From positions 3,286,001 to 3,350,000 of the forward strand of contig NZ_JAFBBW010000001.1 in the NCBI RefSeq assembly GCF_016907355.1: a DNA stretch of 64,000 nucleotides, written 5' to 3'. The DNA is from Agromyces aurantiacus (GTDB taxonomy: Bacteria > Actinomycetota > Actinomycetes > Actinomycetales > Microbacteriaceae). The position numbers and the translations under genes were made by a program. The notes under the pieces are model-generated. The model had not been told where the DNA came from. It saw nothing but the letters and a program-made list of their open reading frames with translations, and did no database searches. Below, in pieces: positions 8,413-28,934 of the stretch (the first letter of the stretch is position 1; each line of letters begins with the position of its first letter).

Positions 8413-10077
8413 ATGCCCCTGACAACCCGAACCCGAACGCCGGAGAGGCCCAGACGGACGCCGCGGCGTGCGGTCGCTGCTGTGGCGGCGAGCTGTTTCG
8501 CTATCGCAATGGTCATGGTGGCGGGCCCAGCGGTCGCCGCCGACGGCCCGTGGGAGATCGACGGCACCGTACCCGACACGGGCACCACCGAAATCACCGA
8601 TCTGTACGGGAACGTGAAGGAGCTCGGACCGCTCAACTCGAACACCACGAAGATCGGCGTCATCCACAACGACGCCCTCCCCACGCTTGGGGAGACGAAC
8701 CCGAACGCCCAAGTGGATCTCCGTCGGGCGTGGCTGGATGTCGCGCAGGATACGTCTACCCAGCACTTCTGGCTGTACTTCGCCTGGGAACGTGACAAGA
8801 ACACCGGCAGCGGCTTCATCGCCTACGAGTTCATGCAGAACCCGGCGCCCGACGGATGCGACTACGACAACGCGACCAACGCCGAACTGATCGCCGACTG
8901 CAACCCGTGGGCCAACCGCACGGACGGCGACTTCATGATCCTCTGGGACCAGCAGGGCGGCAGTCTGGACCTGTACCTGCGGGTCTGGGACGACAGCTCG
9001 GGCAACTTGGTGCTCGGAGCGCCGGAGCAACTCGTCGCCGCCGAGTCGGCCGCCGCGTACAGCAGCGACGGGTTCCGTGGTGAAGCCGCGGTCGACCTCA
9101 CGGCGACCATCTTCGGCGGCACCAACGCATGCCTCTCGTTCGCCAACACCATCCCGAGCACGGTCACCGGCAACTCCGACACCGCGGACTACAAGGACAC
9201 GATCCTGGCGCAGACGCCGCCGATCAGCAACTGCGGCAGCGTGACCATCCGCAAGGAGACGGTCCCGGATGAGGATCCGAACACGACGCTCTTCGGCTTC
9301 GACCGGACCTTCACGGACGAGGACGACGCCAACCCGCCGGACCTCACGTTCGACCTGACCGATGACGACTCCGCGACCTGGTCCGGCGTGCCGTTCGGCA
9401 CCGGCTACGTCGTCGACGAGAGCACCGTCCCGGCAGGCTGGGCACTCGACAGCATCGACTGCTCCGACAGCACCGGCTACGACCCCGGCGACATCGTCAC
9501 CGACGTCAGCGCCGGCACCGTGACGTTCGACCTCGCAGCAGGCCAATCGGTCGACTGCACGTACACCAACGTGCCGCAGACCGGTTCCCTGCTCATCGTG
9601 AAGGAACGCAAGCACGCGGCTGACGGAACCGGCGACCACCCGCAGGAGGGTGTCGACTTCACGGTGACGGGCGGGAACATCCCCGCAGACACCCCGTTGA
9701 CGGGGACGACGGATGCCAACGGCGAGCTCTGCCTCGACGGGCTGGTCATCTCCTCCCTCGTGGGTGACTACACCGTGACGGAGACGGTGCCTGAGGGTTA
9801 CGTGAGCACAGACAGCGAACAGGACGTCAGTATCGTGGTCGGCCCCGCCTGTGCCGACGAGGAGGACCCGGTTACGGTGAACTTCTTCAACACGCCACTG
9901 ACCGACGTCACGGTTTCCGTGAATTCGCAGGTCGATGGGGGCACCTTCTCGAGCATCTCGTGTGACGTGGACGGCTCCGACGAGGTGTCGCTCGCCGACG
10001 AGCTGGACGACCCGAGTGTGACGATCACCGACCTGCAGCCGCGGACCGTGATCTGCACCATCGTGATCGACCCGTGA
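8413..10077 (+). CDS. Secreted prealbumin/CnaB-like protein, shorter paralog
   Basis: 554 aa, paralog of the gene at 5455. ATG at 8413 follows the same GGGAGG site. A Tat-independent-looking signal peptide ends near AVAADGP. It keeps the N-terminal module, one CnaB-like repeat (IRK ... DES ... DCTYTN) and the C-terminal pair of domains (LLIVKERKHAADG onward), but lacks the three extra repeats of its neighbour. There is no sorting signal. A 520-bp block (9052-9571) is almost identical to the neighbour, pointing to gene conversion. It ends about 30 nt before a bidirectional terminator facing sucD. Confidence 0.85.
   Translation: MPLTTRTRTPERPRRTPRRAVAAVAASCFAIAMVMVAGPAVAADGPWEIDGTVPDTGTTEITDLYGNVKELGPLNSNTTKIGVIHNDALPTLGETNPNAQVDLRRAWLDVAQDTSTQHFWLYFAWERDKNTGSGFIAYEFMQNPAPDGCDYDNATNAELIADCNPWANRTDGDFMILWDQQGGSLDLYLRVWDDSSGNLVLGAPEQLVAAESAAAYSSDGFRGEAAVDLTATIFGGTNACLSFANTIPSTVTGNSDTADYKDTILAQTPPISNCGSVTIRKETVPDEDPNTTLFGFDRTFTDEDDANPPDLTFDLTDDDSATWSGVPFGTGYVVDESTVPAGWALDSIDCSDSTGYDPGDIVTDVSAGTVTFDLAAGQSVDCTYTNVPQTGSLLIVKERKHAADGTGDHPQEGVDFTVTGGNIPADTPLTGTTDANGELCLDGLVISSLVGDYTVTETVPEGYVSTDSEQDVSIVVGPACADEEDPVTVNFFNTPLTDVTVSVNSQVDGGTFSSISCDVDGSDEVSLADELDDPSVTITDLQPRTVICTIVIDP
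9052..9571 (+). repeat. Second copy of the 520-bp block
   Basis: Partner of 6097-6616; two mismatches by my reading. Confidence 0.9.
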
Positions 10078-16924: not shown

Positions 16925-17476
16925 TCAGTCCACGCGGCCGAGCGCCAGCGCCGCGTACATGAGCGCCGCCACCGTCTCGCCGTCGCGGATGCGGCCGTCG
17001 CGCACCATCCGCATCGTCTCGCCCCACGGCACCGTTCCCACGCGACGGATGCCCTCCTCGGCCTGGTGGTGTTCGGGGCGCGCCGCCGGGGCGGACTCGC
17101 GGAGCCCGGTCGCGAGGAAGACGACCTCGCCCGCCCGGCAGACCCCGTTCAGCGCCTGCATGCGACCGATCTCGCGCCAGTGCGCGGCCTCGAGGCCGGT
17201 CTCCTCGAGCAGCTCGCGCTGCGCGGCCACGAGCGGGTCGTCGCCGTCGGCGCCGCCGGCCGGCACCTCGACCGATGCGCCGACCGTGTGGCGGTCGAGC
17301 GTGACCAGCACGACCTCGTCGTCGTCGGTGAGCGCGACCACGAAGACCGCGGTGTTGCGCAGCTCGACCACGCCGTAGACGCCGTCGCCGCCGTCGGGGC
17401 GGACGACCCGGTCTTCGACGACGCGGATCCACGGGTTCTCGTAGACGAGTCGTTGCTCGCGGATGGGCCAGGTCAC
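16925..17476 (-). CDS. NUDIX hydrolase, ADP-ribose pyrophosphatase-like
   Basis: 183 aa. Carries a NUDIX box ending AAQRELLEETGLEA, with the metal-binding REx2EExG core intact. The preceding part (EVPAGGADGDDP) is one residue shorter than the usual PAGxxExxEDP, and Asp replaces the first Glu. The N-terminal VYENPWIRVVEDRVVRPDG and SVEVPAGG resemble ADP-ribose pyrophosphatases. The GTG start overlaps the pcrA stop as GTGA, so it is translated after pcrA from one message. Substrate not certain. Confidence 0.88.
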   Translation of the reverse strand: MTWPIREQRLVYENPWIRVVEDRVVRPDGGDGVYGVVELRNTAVFVVALTDDDEVVLVTLDRHTVGASVEVPAGGADGDDPLVAAQRELLEETGLEAAHWREIGRMQALNGVCRAGEVVFLATGLRESAPAARPEHHQAEEGIRRVGTVPWGETMRMVRDGRIRDGETVAALMYAALALGRVD

Positions 17477-19992
17477 AGCTTCTCGATCGGCGCGATCTTG
17501 ATGAGGAGCTTCTTCTGTCCGGCCGAGTCGAACGCGACGTGGGCGATGCGCTTGGTGCCCTCGCCCGTGACCTGGCGCACGGTGCCCTCGCCGAAGTCGG
17601 TGTGCCGGATGCGATCGCCCGCCTCGAGCGTGAGGTCGCCGTTGTCGCGCACGGTGCCCGTGACGCGGTTGGCCCACTCGGTCTTCGGAGCGGCCGACCT
17701 CGTGACGCTGAACCGCTCGAGGTCGCGGTCGCGCGTGCCCCAGGCTCCGGCGCCTCCGCCGCCCGCGCCGCCGTAGCCGCCGCGCCGCGCGTTGAGCGCG
17801 CGCGGCTGCGTGCCGCCGCGGCTCGTGGCCATGCCCGGCGACTGCTTCCAGTCGATGAGCTCGTCGGGGATCTCCTGCAGGTACCGGCTCGGCATCGCGA
17901 CCGACACCTCGCCGAACTGCGCCCGGCTCATCGCGAGCGAGAGGTACAGCCGCTTGCGCGCACGCGTGATGCCGACGTAGAACAGGCGGCGCTCCTCAGC
18001 CGGGCCGCCCGGCTCGGACGCCGACATCTGGTGCGGCAGCAGCCCCTCCTCGATGCCGGTGAGGAACACCGCGTGGTACTCGAGGCCCTTCGCGGTGTGC
18101 AGCGTCATGAGCGAGACGGTGCCGGATGCGTCGTCGAGCTCGTCAGCCGCGGCGACGAGCGAGACCTGGGTGAGGAAGTCGACCAGCCCGGCGCCGGGGT
18201 TCTCGCGGTCGAAGTCCTTGGTCTGCGCGAGGAGCTCCTCGACGTTCTCGGCGCGCGTCTCGTCCTGCGGGTCGCGGCTGTTGCGCAGCGTCTCGACGAG
18301 GCCCGACTTGTCGAGCAGGAACGCGAGGACGTCGGACACCTTCGCGGCGCCCTCGTTCGTCCCCTCATCGAGCCCCTTCTGCGACGGCACGAGCATCGAG
18401 GCCGCGGCGTCGAGCAGGTTCGCGAGGCCCTGGATCGCCGTCGTGACCTTCGGGCCGAGGCCGAGCCCGTCGGCCGCGCGCATGCCCTGCCGGAACGAGA
18501 GGTCGTTCTGCTCGGCGAAGCTCGCGATGGCCGTCTCGGTGGCCGGGCCGATGCCGCGCTTGGGGGTGTTCAGGATGCGGCGCAGCGCGAGCTCGTCGAG
18601 CGGGTTCGCGACGGCGATGAGGTACGCCATCGCATCCTTGATCTCGGCGCGCTCGTAGAACTTGGTGCCGCCGACGACCCGGTACGGCAGGGCGGACCGG
18701 ACGAAGATCTCCTCCAGCGCGCGCGTCTGCGCATTGGTGCGGTAGAACACGGCGATGTCGCGGTACGCGACGCCCGCGCGGTGCAGCGCCTCGATCTCGT
18801 CGGCGACGAACTGGGCCTCATCGTGCGCCGAGTACCCGGTGTAGCCGGTGATCTTCTCGCCGTCGCCGTCGGCCGTCCAGAGCTTCTTCTCCTTGCGGTC
18901 GAAGTTGTTCGAGATGACGGCGTTGGCCGCGGACAGGATGTTCTGCGTCGACCGGTAGTTCTGCTCGAGCAGCACGACCTCGGCGCCCGGGAAGTCGCGC
19001 TCGAACTCGACGATGTTGCGGATGTCGGCGCCGCGGAACGCGTAGATCGACTGGTCGGAGTCGCCGACGACCGTGAGGCTCGCGCCCGGGATGCGGCCCG
19101 TCGCATCCGTCATGCCGCGGACGAGCACGCCGTGCGCGTCGAGCTCGGCGACGACATCGGGCTCGACCGGGCGGGTGAGCTCGCGGATCAGCGCGTACTG
19201 CGCGTGGTTCGTGTCCTGGTACTCGTCGACGAGGATGTGCCGGAACCGCCGCTGGTACAGCGCCGCGACCTTGGGGAACGCGCGGAACAGGTAGACCGTC
19301 TCGCTGATCAGGTCGTCGAAGTCGAGCGCACTCGCGTCGCGCAGGCGGCGCGTGTACTGGCGGAAGATCTCGAGGAACATGACCTCGTTGGGGTCGTTCG
19401 TGTTGACGTTGCGCGCGTAGGTCTCGACGTCGGAGAGCTCGTTCTTCAGCTTGGAGATCTTCGCCTGCGCACTCGCGGGCGTGAAGCCCAGCGTGTCGGC
19501 GTCGAGCTCCTTGATGATGCGCTTGAGGATGGTGCGCTGGTCGGCCGAGTCGTAGATCGTGAACGTGCTCGAGAGCCCGATCGCCTCGGCTTCGCGGCGC
19601 AGGATGCGCACGCACGCCGAGTGGAATGTGGAGATCCACATGCCGCCTGCCGCCTCGCCGAGCAGCGCCTCGACGCGCTCGCGCATCTCGGCCGCGGCCT
19701 TGTTCGTGAACGTGATCGCGAGGATCTGGCTCGGCCACGCCTCGCGACCGTCGATGAGGCTCGCGATGCGGTGCGTGAGCACGCGGGTCTTGCCCGACCC
19801 CGCACCCGCGACGATGAGCAGCGCGGGCCCGCGGTACTCGACCGCCTCGCGCTGCTGCGGGTTCAGCCCTGCCGTCAGGCGATCGGATGCCGCGGGGCCG
19901 GCGCCGTGCTCGCTGCTCGCGCGGGCATCGGCGGTGGCGACGGGCGCCTCGCGCCAGCCGGTGGGGTCGTCGGGGTCGAGGATCAGCGTCAT
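17473..19992 (-). CDS. pcrA: PcrA/UvrD-type DNA helicase
   Basis: 839-aa superfamily 1A 3'-5' helicase for repair and replication-fork processing. Motifs in order: Q motif LNPQQREAVEY, Walker A AGAGSGKT, TFTNKAAAEMRERV, DEYQDTNHAQ (Walker B), VVGDSDQSIYAFRGAD, LLEQNYRST, TAKGLEYHAVF and the C-terminal FYVGITRARKRLYLS. An extra N-terminal 40 residues are unconserved. The C-terminus has a Gly-rich linker followed by a Tudor-like domain (GDRIRHTDFGEGTV) as in PcrA. TAGACT at 20002-20007 is a likely -10, 9 nt before the ATG. Confidence 0.96.
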   Translation of the reverse strand: MTLILDPDDPTGWREAPVATADARASSEHGAGPAASDRLTAGLNPQQREAVEYRGPALLIVAGAGSGKTRVLTHRIASLIDGREAWPSQILAITFTNKAAAEMRERVEALLGEAAGGMWISTFHSACVRILRREAEAIGLSSTFTIYDSADQRTILKRIIKELDADTLGFTPASAQAKISKLKNELSDVETYARNVNTNDPNEVMFLEIFRQYTRRLRDASALDFDDLISETVYLFRAFPKVAALYQRRFRHILVDEYQDTNHAQYALIRELTRPVEPDVVAELDAHGVLVRGMTDATGRIPGASLTVVGDSDQSIYAFRGADIRNIVEFERDFPGAEVVLLEQNYRSTQNILSAANAVISNNFDRKEKKLWTADGDGEKITGYTGYSAHDEAQFVADEIEALHRAGVAYRDIAVFYRTNAQTRALEEIFVRSALPYRVVGGTKFYERAEIKDAMAYLIAVANPLDELALRRILNTPKRGIGPATETAIASFAEQNDLSFRQGMRAADGLGLGPKVTTAIQGLANLLDAAASMLVPSQKGLDEGTNEGAAKVSDVLAFLLDKSGLVETLRNSRDPQDETRAENVEELLAQTKDFDRENPGAGLVDFLTQVSLVAAADELDDASGTVSLMTLHTAKGLEYHAVFLTGIEEGLLPHQMSASEPGGPAEERRLFYVGITRARKRLYLSLAMSRAQFGEVSVAMPSRYLQEIPDELIDWKQSPGMATSRGGTQPRALNARRGGYGGAGGGGAGAWGTRDRDLERFSVTRSAAPKTEWANRVTGTVRDNGDLTLEAGDRIRHTDFGEGTVRQVTGEGTKRIAHVAFDSAGQKKLLIKIAPIEKL

Positions 19993-20075
19993 GTCCTCTC
20001 AAGTCTAGGCGCGCCATCCGACAGCGCCCCTCCCCTCCTCGCGCGCTCTCGCGCTCCCCCAGCGGCACCGGATGC

Positions 20076-20379
20076 CGAGTCCCGCCTTCGTGCGGGTGGA
20101 CCCGCAGAAACACGGGATTCGGGATGGGGTGGCGAGGGCGTCGCCCGGGCGGACGTCCCGAGTCCCGCCTTCGTGCGGGTGCACCCTCAGAAACACGGGA
20201 TTCGGGATGGGGTGGCGAGGGCGTCGCCCGGGCGGAACTCCCGAGTCCCGCCTTCGTGCCGGTGCACCGTCAGGAACACGGGATTCGGGATGGAGGTGGC
20301 GTGGCGAGGGCGTCGCCCGGGGTGCTGGTGCCGAGTCCCGCCTTGCTGCGGGTGGACCCGCACGAAGGCGGGACTCGGG
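20076..20379 (+). repeat. Array of four 48-nt palindromic repeats (REP-like), array 1
   Basis: Four units at 20076-20123, 20159-20206, 20242-20289 and 20332-20379, periods 83, 83 and 90 bp. The left arm (CGAGTCCCGCCTTCGTGCGG) is nearly constant. Right arms in units 1-3 are degenerate (ending CACGGGATTCGGG), but unit 4 is an almost perfect palindrome. The 35-42 nt spacers resemble one another (GGTGGCGAGGGCGTCGCCC). It fills the 413-bp gap between pcrA and the P450 gene, and the hairpins may also terminate the operon that ends at 20406. Confidence 0.88.
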
Positions 20380-20405
20380 AGCGAACCGCCGCGCGAAGCG
20401 CCCCG

Positions 20406-21698
20406 CTACCGACCCGGGACGCGGGAGACGGGCCCGAGGCCGACGCTCGCGTACCCCGGGATGAGCACGCCGCGCGCGACGCGACGCGATCGCACCGCGA
20501 GCGGGCGCACCGACGCCGCATCGAGCACGGCGTCGACGAGTCCGCGCACCTGCGCCATCGCGAGCGGCGCACCGAGGCAGAAGTGCGCGCCCGCCCCGAA
20601 CCAGAGCCGGCGCAGGCTCGCGGCGGGGTGGCCGACCGGGTCGAACCCCGGCGCGACGCGGTTCGCGAGGAACGTCGCGAGGATGATCCGGTCGCCGTGC
20701 CGCACGGCGACCTCGCCGATCGTCGTCTCGCGCAGCGTGCTGCGCAACATCACGGGCGACGGCGTCGTGACCCGGAGACCCTCCGAGATCGCCGCGTCGA
20801 TGGGCGTGCGGTCGGCGGCGAGCCGCTCGAGCCATCCGGTGTCGTGCAGCAGGCAGACGAGCCGCGGCAGGTACGCCACGAGGGTCTCGGTGCCCGTGAG
20901 CACGAACGCGCCCACGGCGCCGAGCGACTCCTCCTCGTCGAGCCCGAGCGTGCGCATGCGGCCCGGCACGGTCGCGGGGTCGCCCTCGTGCCACGCCCGC
21001 GCGGCGTGGACGGTGAGCTCGGACATGACCCCGCGGGCGTGCCGCACCTGCGCGGGCGTCATCCGCGGTCGCGAGAGCCGGACCGCGCCGGTGACCGTGG
21101 CGATGCGCCGGAACAGCCGGTCGTCGACGACGTCGGGCGGCAGGCCGACCAGCGTGCTGATCACCGCACTGGCGTACCGCCGCGCGGCGTCGACGAGTTC
21201 GACCGTTCCACCCGCGGCGAGCCGCTCCGTCAGCGCAGCGTAGGGCGCGGCGAGCGTGCGGTCGACGAGGTCGTCGACCGCGGCGGGTGTGAAGAGCGGC
21301 GCGAGGCGGCGCCGCAGCTCGGCGTGCTCGGCGCCCTCCATGTTGAGCAGCACGCGCGGACCGAGCACGGGCGTCCAGAGGTCGCTCGGCGCACCGGGCC
21401 CGTTCTTGGCGAACGCGCTCGGGTCCACGAGCACGCCCCGCAGCAGCGCGGCATCCGTCACCACGACGCCCAGGCGCGGCACGCGCACGACCGGGCGACG
21501 GATGGCGCAGAGCAGCGGATACGCGACCGGGTGCGCCGCGCGCATCACGCGCTCCTCCCAGCGCGTGGCGCGCGCGGCGGTGGCGGTGGGCTCGGCCGCG
21601 GTGGGCTCGGCGGCTGCGGTGGCGGGCGCGGGCGCCGCGGTGGGCGCGGCTGCCGGACCTGCGCCTGCGGGCGCGGCACCCGAACGCACGGCGATCAC
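20406..21698 (-). CDS. Cytochrome P450
   Basis: 430 aa (3 nt longer if the adjacent GTG at 21701 is used). Features: Ala/Pro-rich N-terminus of about 45 residues, I-helix FVLTGTET (about 266-272) in place of the usual AGxxT, ExxR as EGLR (306-309) and haem loop FGAGAHFCLG, with Cys374 as the thiolate ligand. A bacterial class I P450 needing separate redox partners, none of which lies nearby. GTG overlaps the stop of the ketosynthase gene (GTGA). Last gene of the seven-gene operon, so it probably oxidises the product made by the upstream enzymes. The substrate cannot be read from sequence. Confidence 0.93.
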   Translation of the reverse strand: MIAVRSGAAPAGAGPAAAPTAAPAPATAAAEPTAAEPTATAARATRWEERVMRAAHPVAYPLLCAIRRPVVRVPRLGVVVTDAALLRGVLVDPSAFAKNGPGAPSDLWTPVLGPRVLLNMEGAEHAELRRRLAPLFTPAAVDDLVDRTLAAPYAALTERLAAGGTVELVDAARRYASAVISTLVGLPPDVVDDRLFRRIATVTGAVRLSRPRMTPAQVRHARGVMSELTVHAARAWHEGDPATVPGRMRTLGLDEEESLGAVGAFVLTGTETLVAYLPRLVCLLHDTGWLERLAADRTPIDAAISEGLRVTTPSPVMLRSTLRETTIGEVAVRHGDRIILATFLANRVAPGFDPVGHPAASLRRLWFGAGAHFCLGAPLAMAQVRGLVDAVLDAASVRPLAVRSRRVARGVLIPGYASVGLGPVSRVPGR

Positions 21699-22744
21699 CA
21701 CCGAAGCACCGTGACGCCGAGGCTGATGCCGCCCGCGAGGCCGACGAGCGCGACGAGGCTGCCCGGCCCGACCCGGCCCTGCTCGACCGCGCGGTGCAGC
21801 TGGAGCGGCAGCGACACGCTCGCGAGGTTGCCGTGCGACGAGACGGTCTCCTCGGTGATCGCGGGGTCGACGCCGAGCAGGTCGACGATGCGCCGGTGCA
21901 TGGGCAGCGCCACCTGGTGCACGGCGACGAAGTCGAGCTCGTCGCGGTGCACGCCGAGCGCCGCGAGCGTGTCGCCGAAGATGCCGAGCCCGACGCGCGC
22001 GAACGCGCGCTCGAGCGCGCGCCCGTCCATGTCGAAGTAGCTGCCGCCCTGGGCGTGCGGGTTCAGCGACCCGCCGGTGGGCAGCGTGCCGATGCGCCAG
22101 TGCTCGGAGTGCGCGGCGAACCGGCTGCCGATGATGCCGACGCCCGGGTCGTCGCTCGCCTCGAGCAGCACGGCCGCGCCGCCGTCGCTCATCGTGTAGC
22201 CGGGGAACGAGCGCAGGAACTGCGCGCTCGACTCGAGCCGCCAGCGCACGGCGTGCGAGGGCTGCTCGCCGCTGACGACGAGGGCGCGGCGGGCCTGGCC
22301 CGTGGCGATGAGCGCTTCGGCGACCTGCATGCCGGCGAGCAGGCTGTTGCAGGCGTTCTTGACGTCCATGACGGGCGCGGCGACGCCGAGCTTGGCCGCG
22401 ACGATGTGCGCGGTCGCGGGTTCGATGAGGTCCTGGCTCGCGGAGGCGAACACGAGCAGGTCGACCGGGCCGGGCGACTGGGCGAGCGCGCGGCGCGCGG
22501 CGGCGACCGCGAGGTCGGAGGTCTGCCAGCCGTCGTGCCGCACGTGGACGCCGCGCACGCCGGTGAGCCGGGCGATGAGCCCCGACGGCAGCCGCAGCCC
22601 GGGGTTCTCCGCGGCGAGGCGCGCCTCGGTCTCCTCGGTGGTGCGCCGGTCGTCGGGCAGGTGGATGCCGAGGCCCGCGATGCGCGCGACGGTGATCCAG
22701 CGCGGGGCGGCGTGCCGGTGCGGTGCGGGGGTCGTGAGCGTCAT
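21695..22744 (-). CDS. KAS III (FabH/OleA-like) ketosynthase
   Basis: 349 aa thiolase-fold condensing enzyme. The catalytic triad is visible: Cys132 (KNACNSLLAG), His276 (AVHQVALPMH) and Asn306 (SSHGNLASVSLPL). It differs from housekeeping FabH in details such as the VHQVALPMHRR segment, and no fatty-acid synthesis genes flank it. A role in condensing an activated acyl group within the cluster is more likely. ATG at 22744 overlaps the glycosyltransferase stop (ATGA). OleA, which condenses two acyl chains, is a reasonable comparison; this is inference. Confidence 0.9.
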   Translation of the reverse strand: MTLTTPAPHRHAAPRWITVARIAGLGIHLPDDRRTTEETEARLAAENPGLRLPSGLIARLTGVRGVHVRHDGWQTSDLAVAAARRALAQSPGPVDLLVFASASQDLIEPATAHIVAAKLGVAAPVMDVKNACNSLLAGMQVAEALIATGQARRALVVSGEQPSHAVRWRLESSAQFLRSFPGYTMSDGGAAVLLEASDDPGVGIIGSRFAAHSEHWRIGTLPTGGSLNPHAQGGSYFDMDGRALERAFARVGLGIFGDTLAALGVHRDELDFVAVHQVALPMHRRIVDLLGVDPAITEETVSSHGNLASVSLPLQLHRAVEQGRVGPGSLVALVGLAGGISLGVTVLRW

Positions 22745-24147
22745 GTGCGGGCTCCAGTCGTCCGGCCGCGGTCGGGCCGGGGGGTGATCAGGGCGCGTTC
22801 GATGAGGTCGGCCGCGCCGACGGCGCCGTCGCTGCGGGCGCAGGCGTCGCGGAAGCGCGCGAGCGCGGCGAGGCGGTCGTCGGATGGCGCGAGCGCGCGC
22901 CGCACGGCGGCGGCGAGCCGCTCGGCGCCGGCCGGTCCGGTGCGCAGGACGCGCGCGTCGAGCTGTTCGGCGAGGTCGTGGTGCACGAGGCGCGCCGCGA
23001 CATCCGGCTGGTCGTAGTCGATCGGCACGACGACCGCGGGCCGGCCGGCGGCGAGCGCGGCCTGCGCGATGCCCGTGCCGCCGTGATGCACGATCGCGTC
23101 GTAGCGGTCGAGCCGGTCGTAGTCGACGTAGTCGACGATGCGCACGCGATCCACGCGATCGGATGCCCCGGCCGCGCGGGGATTCGCGATGTCGCTGCCG
23201 CCGAGCGAGAGGTCGAAGCGCACGGCGGGGACGAGCGCGGCGACCTCGTCGAGCATCGCGACGAGCCGGGCCTTCTCGGTCGCGAGGTGCGTGCCGAACG
23301 CGACCAGCACGCGCGGGATGCGCGCAGCGGCCCGGGGGATCGCGGACGTCGCGCCGCCCGCGTCCTCGTCCTGGGCGTCCTCGGCGTCGTCGCCGTCGGC
23401 GGCGCCCGCGCCCCACGCGCCCGGCCGGCCGGGCGGTGAGTACCGCACGGGGCCGACGAAGCGCACGGCCTCGGGCCAGCTGCGCGGCAGCTCGAGCTCG
23501 CGCAGCCCGAGCGCGAGGATCGTGTCGGGCGAGTAGGCCTGCTCGGTGCCGTCGGCGCGGAACACGCCCGTGACGCCGAGCGCCCGCAGCGGGCGGGCGT
23601 TGAGCGCGAAGACGCTCCGCTTGAAGGCGCGCACGGCCGCCCGCGCGGCGGCGTCGCGCACGCGGCCGGCGGGGCCGCCAGGCGGGAGCAGCCCGCCGCA
23701 GTACGCGGGCGTGCCGTCCATCGAGCCGATCGCGGCGGGCGAGGGCATGGCCGTGAACCAGCGCGCGCCGTGCTGCCGCGCGACGGGGCCGGCGACGGGC
23801 AGCGTGAAGTCGGCGACGACGACCGCGGGCGGGTCGTCGCGCCATCCGCGGTCGAGGTCGTCGCGGATCGCGCCGAGCACCGCGAGCGTCGCGCGGAACT
23901 GGCGGTGCAGCCGCACGGGGTGGCGGCCGATGCGCTCGGCAGGCTCGGCGATGGCCGCGACCGTCGCGTCGTCGGCGGATTCGAGCGCGTGGGCGGGCAG
24001 GCCCGCCGCCTCGATGCGGGATCGCGCCGCCGCCGTGCTCGTGACCCGCACCGGGATGCCGCGGCGCGCGAGCTCCACGCCGACGCCGAGGATCGGGTGC
24101 AGGTGGCCCGCGAACGGCGGCGCGACGAGCGCGACGTGCTGGCTCAT
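22741..24147 (-). CDS. GT1-family glycosyltransferase (MGT/UGT-like)
   Basis: 468 aa, GT-B fold. N-terminal APPFAGHLHPILGVGVEL with the conserved GHxxP. C-terminal nucleotide-sugar signature VHHGGTGIAQAALAAGRPAVVVPIDYDQP (HHGGTG at 354-359). A roughly 20-residue Asp/Glu/Ala insert (about 246-266) separates the two lobes and looks like a flexible linker. Enzymes of this type glycosylate small hydrophobic acceptors such as macrolides, carotenoids or lipids. It overlaps its neighbours by 4 nt at both ends, so it is part of the operon. Confidence 0.92.
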   Translation of the reverse strand: MSQHVALVAPPFAGHLHPILGVGVELARRGIPVRVTSTAAARSRIEAAGLPAHALESADDATVAAIAEPAERIGRHPVRLHRQFRATLAVLGAIRDDLDRGWRDDPPAVVVADFTLPVAGPVARQHGARWFTAMPSPAAIGSMDGTPAYCGGLLPPGGPAGRVRDAAARAAVRAFKRSVFALNARPLRALGVTGVFRADGTEQAYSPDTILALGLRELELPRSWPEAVRFVGPVRYSPPGRPGAWGAGAADGDDAEDAQDEDAGGATSAIPRAAARIPRVLVAFGTHLATEKARLVAMLDEVAALVPAVRFDLSLGGSDIANPRAAGASDRVDRVRIVDYVDYDRLDRYDAIVHHGGTGIAQAALAAGRPAVVVPIDYDQPDVAARLVHHDLAEQLDARVLRTGPAGAERLAAAVRRALAPSDDRLAALARFRDACARSDGAVGAADLIERALITPRPDRGRTTGART

Positions 24148-24755
24148 GCGATGCCTCCTCCGCGACGAACCGGACGGCCCGCCGCGCCGGGTGCGCCCGC
24201 ACGGAGTCGCTCGACCGCGGCGGACGCGATCGCCGCGAACTCGGGCGAGGCGAGGTAGTCGAGGTGGCCCGCATCGACCTCGTGGTCGACGAGCCCGGTG
24301 CGCCGCACCCACGCTCGCGCGAGCGCGTCGCGTCGCCCGACCACGACCTCGAGGCTCGCCGCGGGCCGTGACCGCGCGACCGGCCCGTAGGCGAGCACGT
24401 GCACGCCCGCGAGCGCTGCCGCGTCGAGCCCGAGGTTGGCGAGCAGCTCGAGCCCGCAGCTGCCCGCGAGCACGAGCGTGCGGTCGGCGCGGGCGAGCGC
24501 CTCGCCGACCGCGGCCGCGTGCCGTCGCGCGAACGAGGGCCTCCGCGAACCGGCGTAGTCGCGCGCGTTCCGCACGCTCGCGAGGGGCAGGGGCGTGGGC
24601 CGCCACGGCCCGCTCGCGGGCGCATACGGGAAGTTCACGTCGAGCCGCTCGTGGGCCGCGACCGGCAGCGCGTCGAGGAACGCCGACTGCGCGGGCGAGA
24701 GCGCCGTCGTCGACGGATCACTGCGGCCCGTGAGGAAGCCGACGAGGAGGGTCAT
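24144..24755 (-). CDS. Small alpha/beta-hydrolase-like protein, unassigned
   Basis: 203 aa. I recognise no named family. A strand-elbow pattern TLVLAGSCGLELLANL gives a candidate nucleophile Ser99 (AGSCG). A later VVVGRRDALARAWV gives Asp143, and DAGHLDYL gives His164, the order and local context of an alpha/beta-hydrolase triad. The N-terminal strand LLVGFLTGRSDPS and a Pro-rich loop replace the usual cap. Lies between two glycosyltransferases with 4-nt overlaps on both sides, so its product acts in the same pathway, perhaps as esterase, thioesterase or acyltransferase (inferred). Confidence 0.75.
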   Translation of the reverse strand: MTLLVGFLTGRSDPSTTALSPAQSAFLDALPVAAHERLDVNFPYAPASGPWRPTPLPLASVRNARDYAGSRRPSFARRHAAAVGEALARADRTLVLAGSCGLELLANLGLDAAALAGVHVLAYGPVARSRPAASLEVVVGRRDALARAWVRRTGLVDHEVDAGHLDYLASPEFAAIASAAVERLRAGAPGAAGRPVRRGGGIA

Positions 24756-25927
24756 GGCCGCACCGCCTCGAACCGGTCGTTGGCGTGCACGAGGTAGCGC
24801 CGCCCGCGCCACGTGATGCGCCGGTCGGCGAGCGCCCCCGCGAACTGCAGCGGCAGGGCCAGATCGGCCGCGAGCGAGCGCACCGGGTCGTGGCGGACGC
24901 GCCCCGTGAGGGCGCGCTGCACGCCCGCGATCACGGCCGAGCGCACGAGCACCGCGGCGAGCGCTGCGCCCACGTTCGGCCGGGTCGGCCGGGCGACCGC
25001 GACCCCGGCAGCGGTCGCGAGCAGCGCCGGGGGCAGCGCGTACGCCGCGACCAGCGCGGCGCGCCATCCGACCGGCTCGGCCCGAAGGGCGAGGGTTGCG
25101 AAGACCATCCAGCGATGCATGAGCGCGCGATACGCGAGCGCGTCGGGCACGGTGGTCGAGACGAACTGCGGCGCCTCGGTCTGGTCGATCGCGCCGCCCG
25201 CCGCGCGGACCCGCTCGGCCACGGCGAGGTCGTCCGCGAGGAGCGGCACGAGGGGCGCGAATCCGCCGAGGCGGTCGAGCGTGGCGCGGCGCATCGCCCA
25301 CGCCATGCCGTTGAGCGCCCGCGCCGGGCCCGCCGCCGAGGTGGCCAGGTAGGTCAGGATCGCCTGGTCGTTCACGAACTGCGCGACGAGCCGCGACCAG
25401 CCGCCCGGACCCGGCGCGTAGCACGGCAGACCGGTGCTGACCTCCGCGATGCGGAGGCCGTCGAGGAGCGCTGCGACCCCATCGGGCGTGAGGCGCGTGT
25501 CGTCGTCGACGACGGCGAACACCTCGGTGCGCAGCAGCGGCTCGGCGTGCGCGAGCTTCGCCATCTTCGGCCCCGCGTCGGGCGGGCAGGGCGGGCAGTC
25601 GACGACCGCGACGTCGGCGAGCGGATGTCGCGCACGCGCCGCGTCGGCGGCTCGCCGGCCCTCGGGGTCGTCCTCGTCCACCAGCCACAGCACGCGTGCG
25701 TCGGGGCACGCCTCGAGCGTCGCGGCGAGCGTGCGCTCGAGCTGCGGGTCGCCCGACCGGATCGGCTGCACGATCGTGAGCTCGGCGGTCGCGATCGGCG
25801 CACCGGTCGCCGCGCGCAGCCGCGCGCGCCGCCGTGCCACGGCGAGCGCCGCGAGACCCGCCTTCGCGCCGAGGAGCACGGCATACGTCGCGGCGGCCGC
25901 GATCGCGACGCGGTCGGCGCGGTTCAT
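24752..25927 (-). CDS. Membrane glycosyltransferase, GT2-like (ceramide-glucosyltransferase/HpnI type)
   Basis: 391 aa. One N-terminal TM helix (about 8-30), then a GT-A catalytic domain: TIVQPIRSGDPQLERTL, FAVVDDDTRL (metal-binding DDD 141-143), LLADDLAVAERV (231-233, the ED-like base) and the MHRWM acceptor-side motif (271-273). Two or three C-terminal TM helices follow. This layout matches GT21-type enzymes that glycosylate membrane lipids at the inner face. Overlaps both neighbours by 4 nt. With the GT1 enzyme it suggests that the product carries at least two sugars, or is lipid-linked. Confidence 0.88.
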   Translation of the reverse strand: MNRADRVAIAAAATYAVLLGAKAGLAALAVARRRARLRAATGAPIATAELTIVQPIRSGDPQLERTLAATLEACPDARVLWLVDEDDPEGRRAADAARARHPLADVAVVDCPPCPPDAGPKMAKLAHAEPLLRTEVFAVVDDDTRLTPDGVAALLDGLRIAEVSTGLPCYAPGPGGWSRLVAQFVNDQAILTYLATSAAGPARALNGMAWAMRRATLDRLGGFAPLVPLLADDLAVAERVRAAGGAIDQTEAPQFVSTTVPDALAYRALMHRWMVFATLALRAEPVGWRAALVAAYALPPALLATAAGVAVARPTRPNVGAALAAVLVRSAVIAGVQRALTGRVRHDPVRSLAADLALPLQFAGALADRRITWRGRRYLVHANDRFEAVRP

Positions 25928-26979
25928 CGCGCTGCCTCGCGGGCGGCGCGGGCGCCGGGGATGGCCCGGGCAGCGCGGGCGGCGGGGGCGGCGCGCGCCT
26001 CCGCCTCGGCGCGGGCGGCGGCGACCGTGCGGTCGAGCGCCTCGTCCATGCCCACCGCCGGCGGCCCGAAGAGCCCGCGTGCACGCGTGTCGTCGAACGT
26101 CTTCGACGACGCGAGCAGCCACACGGCGTACCGCGTGAGCGGCGGCTCGCCGGGCAGCCGGCCGACGCGCCACGCGGTCTCGGCGGCGGTCGCGATCGCG
26201 AGCGCGGGCGCGCGCCGGATCGTGCGGCGCGGCACGGGCAGCCCGAGCTCATGGAGCAGGCGCGCGATCGTCGGCATGATCGGCACGGGCTCGCCGTTGG
26301 TGAGGTTGACGGTGAGCCCCGCGAGGCCGGGGCGCAGCGCGGCCTCGACGAGCTGCGCGACGAGCGTGTCGATGTACACGAGGTCGCCCATCGCCGGATG
26401 CCGAGGGTCGCCGAGGAACGGCAGCCGGCCGCCGCGCACCGCCTCGAGGATGCGCGGCAGCAGCGTCGTGTCGCCGGGCCCGAACACCGCGCGTGGTCGC
26501 GCGACGACCCACTCCCCCGGATGCCGTCGCACGAGCTCCTCGCCCGCGTGCTTGGTGCGCGCGTACTCGTTCAGGAACCGCGGACCGGCCGGGCTCGACT
26601 CGGTCAGCCCGAACTGGTCGGCGGGCCGGTAGAGCACCGACGTCGACGACACGTAGACGACCCGCCGCGTGCCGCACCTCCGCGCGAGATCGAGCACGTT
26701 CGCGGTCGCGTCGACATTCTGCGCGCGGAACTGCGCGCGCGTGCCCCACTGGCTCGTGCGGGCCGCGGCGTGCACGATCACGTCGGGACGGAACGCGTCG
26801 CCGAACGGCAGCGCGACGGGCCGGGCCAGGTCGAGGCTCGCGACATCCGGATCCTCGACGCGGCGCCGCCCGACGCCCCGGACGTCGACGCCGGGATGCA
26901 CGCGGAACGCGCGCAGGAGCGCGCCGCCCACGAACCCGGTCGCGCCCGTGACGAGCACGCGCGTCCGCTCATCCGGCAT
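25924..26979 (-). CDS. Extended SDR (NAD-dependent epimerase/3-beta-HSD-like)
   Basis: 351 aa. Nucleotide-binding VTGATGFVGGALL (Gly12, 15, 18), Asp-rich strand, HAAARTSQWG, VYVSSTSVLY and catalytic Tyr139/Lys143 (NEYARTK). The C-terminal region (GDLVYIDTLVAQLVEAAL, TVNLTNGEPV) and length resemble 3-beta-hydroxysteroid dehydrogenase/isomerases, including OleD. The tail is Ala/Arg-rich. It probably reduces a keto group made by the ketosynthase (inference). ATG overlaps the ligase gene by 11 nt. Confidence 0.9.
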   Translation of the reverse strand: MPDERTRVLVTGATGFVGGALLRAFRVHPGVDVRGVGRRRVEDPDVASLDLARPVALPFGDAFRPDVIVHAAARTSQWGTRAQFRAQNVDATANVLDLARRCGTRRVVYVSSTSVLYRPADQFGLTESSPAGPRFLNEYARTKHAGEELVRRHPGEWVVARPRAVFGPGDTTLLPRILEAVRGGRLPFLGDPRHPAMGDLVYIDTLVAQLVEAALRPGLAGLTVNLTNGEPVPIMPTIARLLHELGLPVPRRTIRRAPALAIATAAETAWRVGRLPGEPPLTRYAVWLLASSKTFDDTRARGLFGPPAVGMDEALDRTVAAARAEAEARAAPAARAARAIPGARAAREAAR

Positions 26980-28396
26980 GCACGGCCCCCTCCGCCACGG
27001 CCGCCGCCTCGGGTGTCGCCTCGGCGGGGCTCGTGGACGCGCCCGCCGCCCGCCGGATCCGCACGAGCTTGTCGCCCGGCGGGGGCGGTGCCCACGCGGT
27101 GATGCGAACGTCCGGAGGCCTCGCGCCGACGGTCGCGAACAGCCCGGCGAGGGCCCGCCGCACCGCCGTGTCGAGCGCGGCGTCCGCGCGCGCGTCGCCC
27201 GTGCGCTCGAGCGCGACCTCGAGCCGGCCCGGCGTCCAGCGGATCGCCCACTCGGCGCCATCCTCCCGGCCGCCGGAATCGCCGTCGGCGACCGCGAGCG
27301 CCATCGCGCGCCGGATCGTGTCGGGGAACACGCGGACCGTGCCGCCGTCGGGGCCGAGCGCCTCGACGACCTCGTCGGCGCGGCCCTCGACCGCCTCGAT
27401 CACGCGCGACGGGTCGCCGCACGGGCAGGTGGCGGGGGCGTCCCAGTCGGCCCCCGCCGGCAGACGCAGCACGTCGTCGAGCCGGTAGCGCACCACGAGC
27501 TGCGTGCGCCGCTCGAGGTCGGTGACGATCGGCGTGAACCGGCGGTGCTCGGTATCGAGCCACTCGGGCTCGACCACCACTCCGCGCTCGTTGAGGTGCA
27601 GCCGCCCGTGCGCGCAGTCGAGGGCGAGCAGGCCTTCGGTCGCCTGGTAGACCCGGCGCGGGCGCACGCCCCACGCCCGCTCGGCCGCCTCGGCGTCGGC
27701 GGGGTCGAACACCTCGGCGACCGCGACCACGGTGCGCGGCGCGATCGCGAGCCCGCCGCGGCGCTGCGCCCGGGCGAGGTCGCCGAGCACGCTCGCGGGT
27801 GCGACGAGCACGTCGGGCCGGGCCGCGGCGACGGCGGCGAGCACGTCGGCGAACGCCGCCACCAGGTCGACGAACCGGAAGTCGAGGCGGCGGCTGGCCA
27901 CCGACTCGTACAAGGTGCTGTTCGCGCGCAGGCAGAACGCGATGCGCACGGGCGCGCGCCATGGCACGAGCAGCTGCCGGAGGCTTCGGCGGTCGAGCAG
28001 ACGGCCGAGCACCGTGCCCGCCCACCGCATCCGCTCGGACGCATCGACGAGGAACACCCCCGGGCGCCCCGACGTGCCGCTCGAGAGACCGACCGTGATG
28101 CCGCCGGGCAGCAGCCCGGAGAAGTCGCGCGTGCGCTCGGCCGTGCGCGCTGCCGCGAGGGCCGCCTCGAGGTCGATGCCGAGGGCGTTCCATCCGGCGA
28201 AGTCGGCCAGCACCGCGGCTTTGTCGACGACCGGGACGTCGGCCAGTGCGGCGTACCCGTGCGCGGACGCGGTCGCGCGCGGCATCCGCTCGCGCAGCAG
28301 TCGACGGATGGCGCGCCGCCGGTGCCGCTCGAGCCCGCGGCGGGTCGTGAACCGCACGCCCCAGCGCGAGCGCGCGAACGAGCCCACCGCGTCCAT
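26969..28396 (-). CDS. Adenylate-forming ligase, PaaK/F390-synthetase-like
   Basis: 475 aa, first gene of the operon. Features: P-loop VGLSSGTSGRPG (about 102-113), VYQATEG (249-255, equivalent to YGxTE), RYRLDDVLRLP (303 onward), a CPCG motif (324-327) and EGRADEVVE (about 337-345), all in PaaK-like order. It lacks the large C-terminal domain of typical acyl-CoA synthetases. PaaK relatives activate aryl or acyl acids as adenylates and pass them to CoA or another acceptor. ATG at 28396 has GGGGGA upstream. Substrate unknown. It probably supplies the ketosynthase downstream. Confidence 0.9.
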   Translation of the reverse strand: MDAVGSFARSRWGVRFTTRRGLERHRRRAIRRLLRERMPRATASAHGYAALADVPVVDKAAVLADFAGWNALGIDLEAALAAARTAERTRDFSGLLPGGITVGLSSGTSGRPGVFLVDASERMRWAGTVLGRLLDRRSLRQLLVPWRAPVRIAFCLRANSTLYESVASRRLDFRFVDLVAAFADVLAAVAAARPDVLVAPASVLGDLARAQRRGGLAIAPRTVVAVAEVFDPADAEAAERAWGVRPRRVYQATEGLLALDCAHGRLHLNERGVVVEPEWLDTEHRRFTPIVTDLERRTQLVVRYRLDDVLRLPAGADWDAPATCPCGDPSRVIEAVEGRADEVVEALGPDGGTVRVFPDTIRRAMALAVADGDSGGREDGAEWAIRWTPGRLEVALERTGDARADAALDTAVRRALAGLFATVGARPPDVRITAWAPPPPGDKLVRIRRAAGASTSPAEATPEAAAVAEGAVHAG

Positions 28397-28451: not shown

Positions 28452-28546
28452 GCGGAGCGCTTGGCCGCCACCCCGGCGGCCACGCGAGCCGCCGCTGGGC
28501 TGTCGGCCGGCGCCGCCGCGCGCCGCCCGACGGCCCCCGGCTCTCC

Positions 28547-28872
28547 CGAGTCCCGGGTTCCAGCGGGTCCACCCGCACCAAGGCGGGACTCGGCGACATC
28601 ACCACCACGCGAGACGCCACCCCGCACCATCCCCCCTCCCGAGTCCCGGGTTCCAGCGGGTCCACCCGCACCAAGGCAGGACTCGGCGACATCACCACCA
28701 CGCGAGACGCCACCCCGCACCATCCCCCTCCCGAGTCCCGGGTTCCGGCGGGTGCACCCGCACCAAGGCGGGACTCGACGACCATCACCACCACGCGAGA
28801 CCCCACCCCACACCCCATCCCCCTCCCGAGTCCCGGGTTTCAGCGAGTGCACCCGCAGAAAGGCGGGACTCG
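28547..28872 (-). repeat. Array of four 46-nt palindromic repeats, array 2 (inverted relative to array 1)
   Basis: Units at 28547-28592, 28640-28685, 28732-28777 and 28827-28872; periods 93, 92 and 95 bp. Read on the minus strand, each unit begins CGAGTCCYGCCTTNGTGCGG (the 28827 unit reads TTTCTGCGG there), as in array 1, and ends with a CCGGGACTCGGGA arm. Spacers are again near-copies of one another. It occupies the gap between the operon promoter and the glycerophosphodiesterase gene. Apart from the promoter nothing else is seen in 28397-28934. Confidence 0.88.
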
Positions 28873-28934
28873 CGACGCTGGAAGCCGCGAGCGGCGCGCG
28901 AGCGCGCGGCGCGCGAGCGCGCGGAGCCGCCCCG

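Follow-up and report, generated by a model that had tools for sequence, protein, structure and literature searches.

A run of seven genes on the minus strand of the Agromyces aurantiacus genome, at 20406-28396 of the 64,000-nucleotide stretch analysed here (the window; positions 3286001-3350000 of a 3.88-Mb single-contig genome, G000), raises the question of what an operon combining a ligase, a reductase, a ketosynthase, two glycosyltransferases, a hydrolase and a cytochrome P450 would make. On balance we lean towards an operon for a lipid glycoside, with head-to-head condensation of acyl chains at its centre, a reading drawn from sequence comparison. As a preliminary description of this DNA had reported, all seven open reading frames (ORFs) are present, intact and free of internal stops; from the first gene to the last they are as follows.

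26969..28396, minus strand: adenylate-forming ligase (LIG) of the PaaK/F390-synthetase superfamily, TIGR02304, 475 aa
25924..26979, minus strand: extended short-chain dehydrogenase/reductase (SDR), OleD-like (2-alkyl-3-oxoalkanoate reductase type), 351 aa
24752..25927, minus strand: GT2/GT21-like glycosyltransferase (GT2), HpnI-like, 391 aa
24144..24755, minus strand: small alpha/beta hydrolase (HYD) with Ser99-Asp143-His164 and no Pfam or NCBIfam family, 203 aa
22741..24147, minus strand: GT1 glycosyltransferase (GT1), macrolide-GT/EryCIII-like, 468 aa
21695..22744, minus strand: OleA-type thiolase, annotated as ketoacyl synthase (KAS) III, 349 aa
20406..21701, minus strand: cytochrome P450, 431 aa from a GTG start that is uncertain

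The KAS is OleA-type by its Glu-Pro signature and is predicted to condense two acyl-CoAs. Its triad (C132/H276/N306) is intact, and Glu108-Pro aligns with the Glu-Pro of OleA 3fk5 (the Glu117 position), which sharpens the earlier label "KAS III". Comparison of 59 KAS rows from the fetched loci, duplicates included, establishes this signature: Glu stands at the position in the window KAS, the other Agromyces-operon rows, two related loci (L051 and L052) and five OleA-like rows (all from the window's own order), whereas 12 FabH-like rows have Thr, and rows of a second ketosynthase, KAS2, described below, have Ile, Leu or Met. According to the excerpted text of PMC7064751, the Glu is essential for condensation in X. 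campestris OleA, and Glu-Pro occurs in all but two of the aligned OleA sequences. In a tree of 51 of these rows (the eight dropped were all second readings of one gene or second records of one strain), the five Agromyces KAS formed a group (support 100/95) joined by L051 and L052 (100/99), and 27 KAS2 rows formed a separate group (97/90) with the window KAS outside it. The window KAS scored 153.5 bits on NF006720 (PRK09258), a model that we take to cover OleA, and 122.7 bits on the fabH model, below the cut-offs of 285 and 292.1, respectively. Among 120 KAS homologues listed, four were named acyl-CoA:acyl-CoA alkyltransferase (by JGI), and such other names as were given were 3-oxoacyl- or ketoacyl-ACP synthase. 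A housekeeping FabH was ruled out for this gene by the Glu signature, and a separate FabH-like gene (L002) is also present in the genome.

For the other six proteins, comparison establishes the gene identities and intact catalytic residues, largely as first described. The best NCBIfam match of the SDR was OleD (NF042422, 7e-47; 160 bits against a cut-off of 580), with Y139/K143 present. The resemblance to Ole enzymes noted earlier is supported. LIG had likewise been judged to be of a different type from the Ole ligase, correctly: it scored 281.9 bits on NCBIfam TIGR02304, above the cut-off of 251.9, and gave no match to the OleC model. Its P-loop SSGTSG, YQATEG motif and invariant Lys443 are intact, and as a profile it matched PaaK-type ligases in PDB (4r1l, E 1.4e-12), while as a single sequence it matched none there; of 7994 proteins scored, 1815 were homologous to this ligase family at E<=0.001. 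GT2 carries a catalytic DDD at 141-143 and matched PF13506 (6.7e-27) and the HpnI model (3.5e-30; 105 bits against a cut-off of 310), and GT21/HpnI-like transferases glycosylate lipids. GT1, with an HHGGTG motif at 354, matched PF06722 (4.4e-8) and the MGT model (5.7e-19; 68 bits against 260). The P450 (PF00067, 3.2e-9) has TGTET and EGLR motifs and a heme Cys, which is at 375 and not at 374 as first given; it is 63% and 54% identical to the KAS-adjoining P450 of L051 and L052. HYD has a conserved Ser99/Asp143/His164 triad, with Ser99 invariant, and the nearest of its homologues that bear an organism name come from Agromyces. Its profile had no match in PDB by sequence, and structure comparisons returned only generic lipases, thioesterases and esterases with no family standing out (weak Foldseek matches, best E 5.2e-4, query TM 0.42). 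OleB uses an Asp nucleophile; an OleB-like hydrolase, as the earlier comparison with OleABCD implied, was ruled out by the invariant Ser99, the operon hydrolase being the one examined.

These identities suggest the following route. The OleA-type thiolase would join two fatty acyl-CoAs into a 2-alkyl-3-oxo acid, which the OleD-like SDR would reduce to a 2-alkyl-3-hydroxy acid. LIG, as an F390-synthetase-type enzyme, would adenylate the carboxylate, leading to a beta-lactone or ester, and would thereby take the place held in sister clusters by an acyl-CoA-ligase-type (probably OleC-like) enzyme. The P450 would hydroxylate an acyl chain, the GT21-like GT2 and GT1 would add sugars, and the Ser hydrolase may be an acyltransferase, an esterase or an editing enzyme. 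The product is most likely a two-chain lipid of the 2-alkyl-3-hydroxy-acid type (acid, ester or beta-lactone) that is oxidised and glycosylated; what the substrates and sugars are, in which order the reactions run and what is formed in the end are all our inference. The operon does look like one of activation, condensation, reduction, glycosylation and oxidation, as proposed earlier, and the Glu-Pro signature shifts the odds away from aryl glycosides, one of the product classes then named, towards two-chain lipids.

The main reason for placing LIG on the OleA/OleD product comes from sister clusters in Microbacteriaceae, where the KAS-P450 pair occurs with either of two ligase-SDR pairs. A close KAS (E<=1e-60) was found in 25 of 299 Microbacteriaceae genomes, including the window genome and G022 (the genome of L051), and we examined the 23 other loci (L124-L146). 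In 16 of these the KAS lies next to a P450 and a different, mftF-like GT2 (GT2b); an acyl-CoA-ligase-type enzyme then occurs in 15 (L133 is cut), and a different reductase, SDRb, in 12 of the 16 (not seen in L141, L145 or L146). Six loci (L124-L128 and L144) read LIG-SDR-KAS-P450, the same order of ligase, reductase, OleA-type KAS and P450 as in the window, with no GT2, hydrolase or GT1 in the stretches read, and L142 reads LIG-KAS-P450, an SDR not being visible there. The KAS was 65-70% identical to that of the window in the six LIG-SDR loci, 50% in L142 and 46-65% in the 16 GT2b-type loci. In trees that left out pieces under 60% of length, the LIG of the LIG-type clusters grouped with the Agromyces LIG (95/87), and the SDRs of Agromyces, Herbiconiux-type, widespread and enterobacterial loci formed one group apart from SDRb (100/99), within which the Agromyces-Herbiconiux join was unsupported (83/44); a second enterobacterial SDR fell elsewhere. 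In L051 (10630-12588) the GT2 and P450 read as a single 652-aa ORF; a check of two further loci, L136 and L138, placed the matches in different frames.

The other half of the operon has wider relatives. LIG, SDR, GT2, HYD and GT1 match an operon in Acidobacteriota and Gemmatimonadota (one metagenome-assembled contig each), Verrucomicrobiota, Pseudomonadota and another actinomycete, laid out as KAS2-MBL-(LIG)-SDR-GT2-HYD-GT1, where KAS2 is a CorB-like ketosynthase and MBL a metallo-beta-lactamase-fold hydrolase. A scan of species-genome contigs with the HYD alignment gave 29 loci, two from Agromyces and 27 others; as these were chosen by HYD and one nine-residue pattern, the frequency of the other genes without HYD cannot be deduced from them. 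Among the non-Agromyces loci with DNA at the relevant place, GT2 and SDR precede HYD in 26/26 (L025 is cut), GT1 comes after HYD in 25/25 (L032 and L045 are cut), KAS2 and MBL are present in 24/25 (L025 and L045 are cut; L047 has neither) and LIG stands before SDR in 15/26, with other genes between the two in L027, L033 and L040. The actinomycete locus (L096, genome G117) has the full KAS2-MBL-LIG-SDR-GT2-HYD-GT1 order. In L050, KAS2 and MBL stand between HYD and GT1, and the SDR and GT1 matches are split over several frames, so this copy may be damaged. The window, like L053, L060 and L061, carries the LIG-SDR-GT2-HYD-GT1 order, sharing SDR-GT2-HYD-GT1 with the widespread KAS2-MBL form, but has no KAS2 or MBL (no match to the metallo-beta-lactamase-fold hydrolase at E<=1e-5 in the 64-kb window) and instead has an OleA-type KAS and a P450 at its other end. 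By sequence, then, the Agromyces operon is a combination of two wider cluster types, and GT2-HYD-GT1 may either have been gained by, or lost from, a LIG-SDR-KAS-P450 cluster. The preliminary description had asked whether the genes would prove scattered; five core genes are conserved together across five phyla, and their order is kept in Agromyces. We regard the operon as real and conserved, and as a variant of OleA-initiated pathways rather than a new category.

Some members of this wider group differ in content. Five enterobacterial loci (L027, L033, L036, L040 and L041) carry a second SDR. Two Microbacteriaceae genomes (G443, L094; G237, L095) have a reduced SDR-MBL-LIG-KAS2 set with no glycosyltransferase or hydrolase match. 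Carriage on plasmids was dropped as an idea after a search of PLSDB with GT2 gave one Fusobacterium match (29% over 61% of the query), and 8.2 kb of the Citrobacter locus had no megablast match in E. coli.

Within Agromyces, the operon is found in 5 of 60 genomes, the window genome included, between GDPD and pcrA/uvrD. All seven genes follow the same order in G000, G017, G055 and G060; in G074, whose contig starts inside GT2, the five genes that can be seen agree, and a separate contig (L152) has LIG next to GDPD. The order is thus kept in each of the five operon-bearing genomes, which goes beyond chance, and the set is common to five Agromyces species. HYD matched six of the 60 genomes, the sixth (G006) being a fragment; this was rejected as a degraded copy of the operon, as the partial match (E 5.4e-4, two TGA codons) had no other operon gene in the 19 kb around it, only a 29% SDR match. 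Among 394 genomes of the class, five had a TIGR02304 score above the cut-off, two of these being Agromyces, as did one of the 14 controls. GDPD adjoins the ligase end in all five operon-bearing genomes, and the P450 end lies within about 0.4 kb of UvrD in G000, G017 and G074, about 2.3 kb from it in G055 and about 4 kb in G060. A GDPD match was present in 57/60 Agromyces genomes, and among 30 GDPD loci read (L147-L176), LIG adjoined in four, UvrD adjoined in 12 (74-189 bases between matches), UvrD lay at 0.8-1.4 kb in four, and neither was within the stretch in 10. The GDPD-pcrA/uvrD junction is a variable site in Agromyces, and the survey does not separate gain of the operon from its loss.

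Several points weigh against the favoured reading. None of KAS, SDR, GT2 and GT1 comes near the cut-off of the named NCBIfam model closest to it. The Glu signature is also found in PpyS-type pyrone synthases, according to the excerpted text of PMC4578411, and the join of the window KAS group with the five OleA-like rows was flagged as a possible long-branch effect. LIG is missing in 11 of 26 non-Agromyces loci of the wider operon (10 Lysobacterales loci and L050), and LIG-SDR-KAS-P450 clusters exist without glycosyltransferases. Placing LIG in the slot of OleC is weakened by the sister-cluster ligase itself, which scored only 74 bits on the OleC model against a cut-off of 900, with generic acyl-CoA ligase models higher, the OleC-like label coming from the way PMC7064751 interprets a similar cluster. 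Lastly, GT1 of G060 (L060, 8294-9597) matches in two frames that meet at 8734, so it may be broken there or reflect a sequencing error.

If the condensation step is accepted, the fate of the resulting acid can be read in more than one way. A tentative but serviceable alternative is a membrane or cell-envelope glycolipid, in which one or two sugars would be joined, through an ester or a glycosidic bond, to a mycolate-like 2-alkyl-3-hydroxy acid with HYD as acyltransferase. This would suit the GT21/HpnI-like GT2 and the small lipase-like hydrolase with its invariant triad, and three enterobacterial versions of the wider operon (L027, L033 and L040) point to a lipid product by their additional genes for a PAP2 protein, a fatty acid hydroxylase and desaturases. 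The acyltransferase role, on the other side, is read from a fold that also occurs in esterases and thioesterases. We take RhlA-RhlB-RhlC, the rhamnolipid set of a hydrolase-fold protein, a GT1 and a GT2, to be a resemblance of enzyme classes only.

We think it unlikely, though worth stating, that the product is instead a glycosylated beta-lactone, with LIG a new beta-lactone synthetase and the compound a secreted, sugar-bearing inhibitor. The excerpts of PMC7064751 list OleA, glycosyltransferase, OleC, P450 and OleD domains in a cluster of A. atraurantiacus, and section 11 proposes a similar path, with a hydroxylated, glycosylated beta-lactone as its predicted, untested product. We compared that cluster by its listed domains and its look-alikes (L051, L052 and 16 of the 23 loci L124-L146) by sequence. 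The window shares with them an OleA-type KAS beside a P450, and with the A. atraurantiacus-type cluster a predicted condensation, reduction, hydroxylation and glycosylation, but has an F390-synthetase-type ligase, an SDR of another clade, a GT21-like GT2, a hydrolase and a GT1 where the look-alikes have an acyl-CoA-ligase-type enzyme, SDRb and an mftF-like GT2; none of the L051-type acyl-CoA ligase, SDRb or GT2b was the best match of any window stretch at E<=1e-5. In favour of this reading, an acyl-CoA-ligase-type enzyme elsewhere accompanies the KAS-P450 pair that LIG adjoins here, and no OleC was above cut-off in the genome (best 71 bits against 900). That threshold proves little, however, as it was reached by none of the 14 control genomes (12 of which gave weak matches) and the sister ligase fell as far below it. 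The TIGR02304 ligase lacks an OleC-model match, PaaK-type enzymes as a rule make CoA thioesters, and a neighbouring Ser hydrolase would risk inactivation by such a product. Relative to the OleABCD olefin and OleACD beta-lactone systems, the operon shares the OleA-type KAS with Glu-Pro and the OleD-like SDR, but has no OleC-model match and no OleB, and adds two glycosyltransferases, a P450 and a Ser hydrolase.

An alpha-pyrone or ketone that is later reduced and glycosylated, made by a PpyS-like or ketone-releasing KAS, is improbable. PpyS-type pyrone synthases need the same Glu, where MxnB and CorB carry Val, and the pyrone that CorB forms is built of two chains (excerpts of PMC4578411). The PDB entry nearest to KAS2 of the wider operon was 4v2p, followed by CorB, at 1.5e-50 or better in all three tested (L026, L024 and L038). 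We take 4v2p to be MxnB, 4yuc being the entry named CorB. The likeness of CorB and MxnB is to KAS2 of the wider operon, not to the window KAS, and an OleD-like reductase is the usual partner here, which fits reduction of a beta-keto acid. Slimmer still is the chance of an aryl or short-chain glycoside, in which the PaaK-like LIG would activate an aryl acid for KAS to extend and the glycosyltransferases to decorate: the nearest solved ligases include phenylacetate-CoA ligases, but the KAS has the two-chain Glu in place of the FabH residue, GT2 is of GT21 type and relatives carry fatty-chain tailoring genes.

The reading of a two-chain lipid glycoside does not, as far as we could trace, coincide with a described system: as the preliminary description had suspected, no pathway with this gene set was found in the open-licence PMC literature, a search with subscription journals and MIBiG outside its range. 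The nearest counterpart is the glycosylated beta-lactone predicted in PMC7064751. The excerpts of PMC2649909 mention a ligase annotated as F390 synthetase within a cluster of fatty-acid genes in D. psychrophila and name no glycosyltransferase there, and those of PMC5467263 and PMC9823363 only list the F390-synthetase gene name.

GC content at third codon positions is 0.91-0.99 across the seven ORFs. In comparisons with L053, L061 and L062, each gene shows more changes at the third codon position than at the first and second (L062 does not include LIG and SDR). All junctions overlap, as stated before, though the wording then was loose: in order, the overlaps are 11, 4, 4, 4, 4 and 7 nt, that is, four of 4 nt, one of 11 and one of 7. 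The last holds only if the P450 GTG start is right, and the true start may lie downstream, because similarity to other Agromyces loci begins at residue 45-48 in three of four and at 17 in one. The single promoter once assumed was not seen, as a scan gave no sigma-70-like site (0 against 0.1 expected), a scan that is weak for GC-rich actinobacteria; a terminator scan found none, and Rfam and tRNA searches of the window gave no match. Downstream lies pcrA/uvrD (17473-19992), and upstream a GDPD gene and a BaxI gene. Arrays of a ~48-nt palindromic repeat with 83-95 nt spacing occur on both sides of the operon (20075-20413 and 28543-28915). Genome-wide, the half-repeat pattern with <=3 mismatches matched 77 times on the forward and 78 times on the reverse strand, where one palindrome can score on both strands, against none for the reversed control, and the matches listed fall at no fewer than about 22 genome places; close array pairs are also found elsewhere in the genome, so the flanking of the operon may be coincidence.

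A bolder proposal, which we consider rather doubtful, is that TIGR02304 enzymes are an unrecognised second family doing the job of OleC on 2-alkyl-3-hydroxy acids, and that across five phyla they act in a conserved pathway yielding diglycosylated two-chain lipids or beta-lactones, OleA-type and CorB-like ketosynthases having replaced each other there. The analysis turns a gene list into a testable pathway, head-to-head condensation then glycosylation, for an operon whose core is conserved across five phyla and has no described product in the literature searched. It also suggests a role for the large TIGR02304 ligase family and for a hydrolase family without a Pfam entry. If it is right, soil actinomycetes, Verrucomicrobia, Acidobacteria and Proteobacteria would be expected to make a class of two-chain lipids or beta-lactones that bear sugars.

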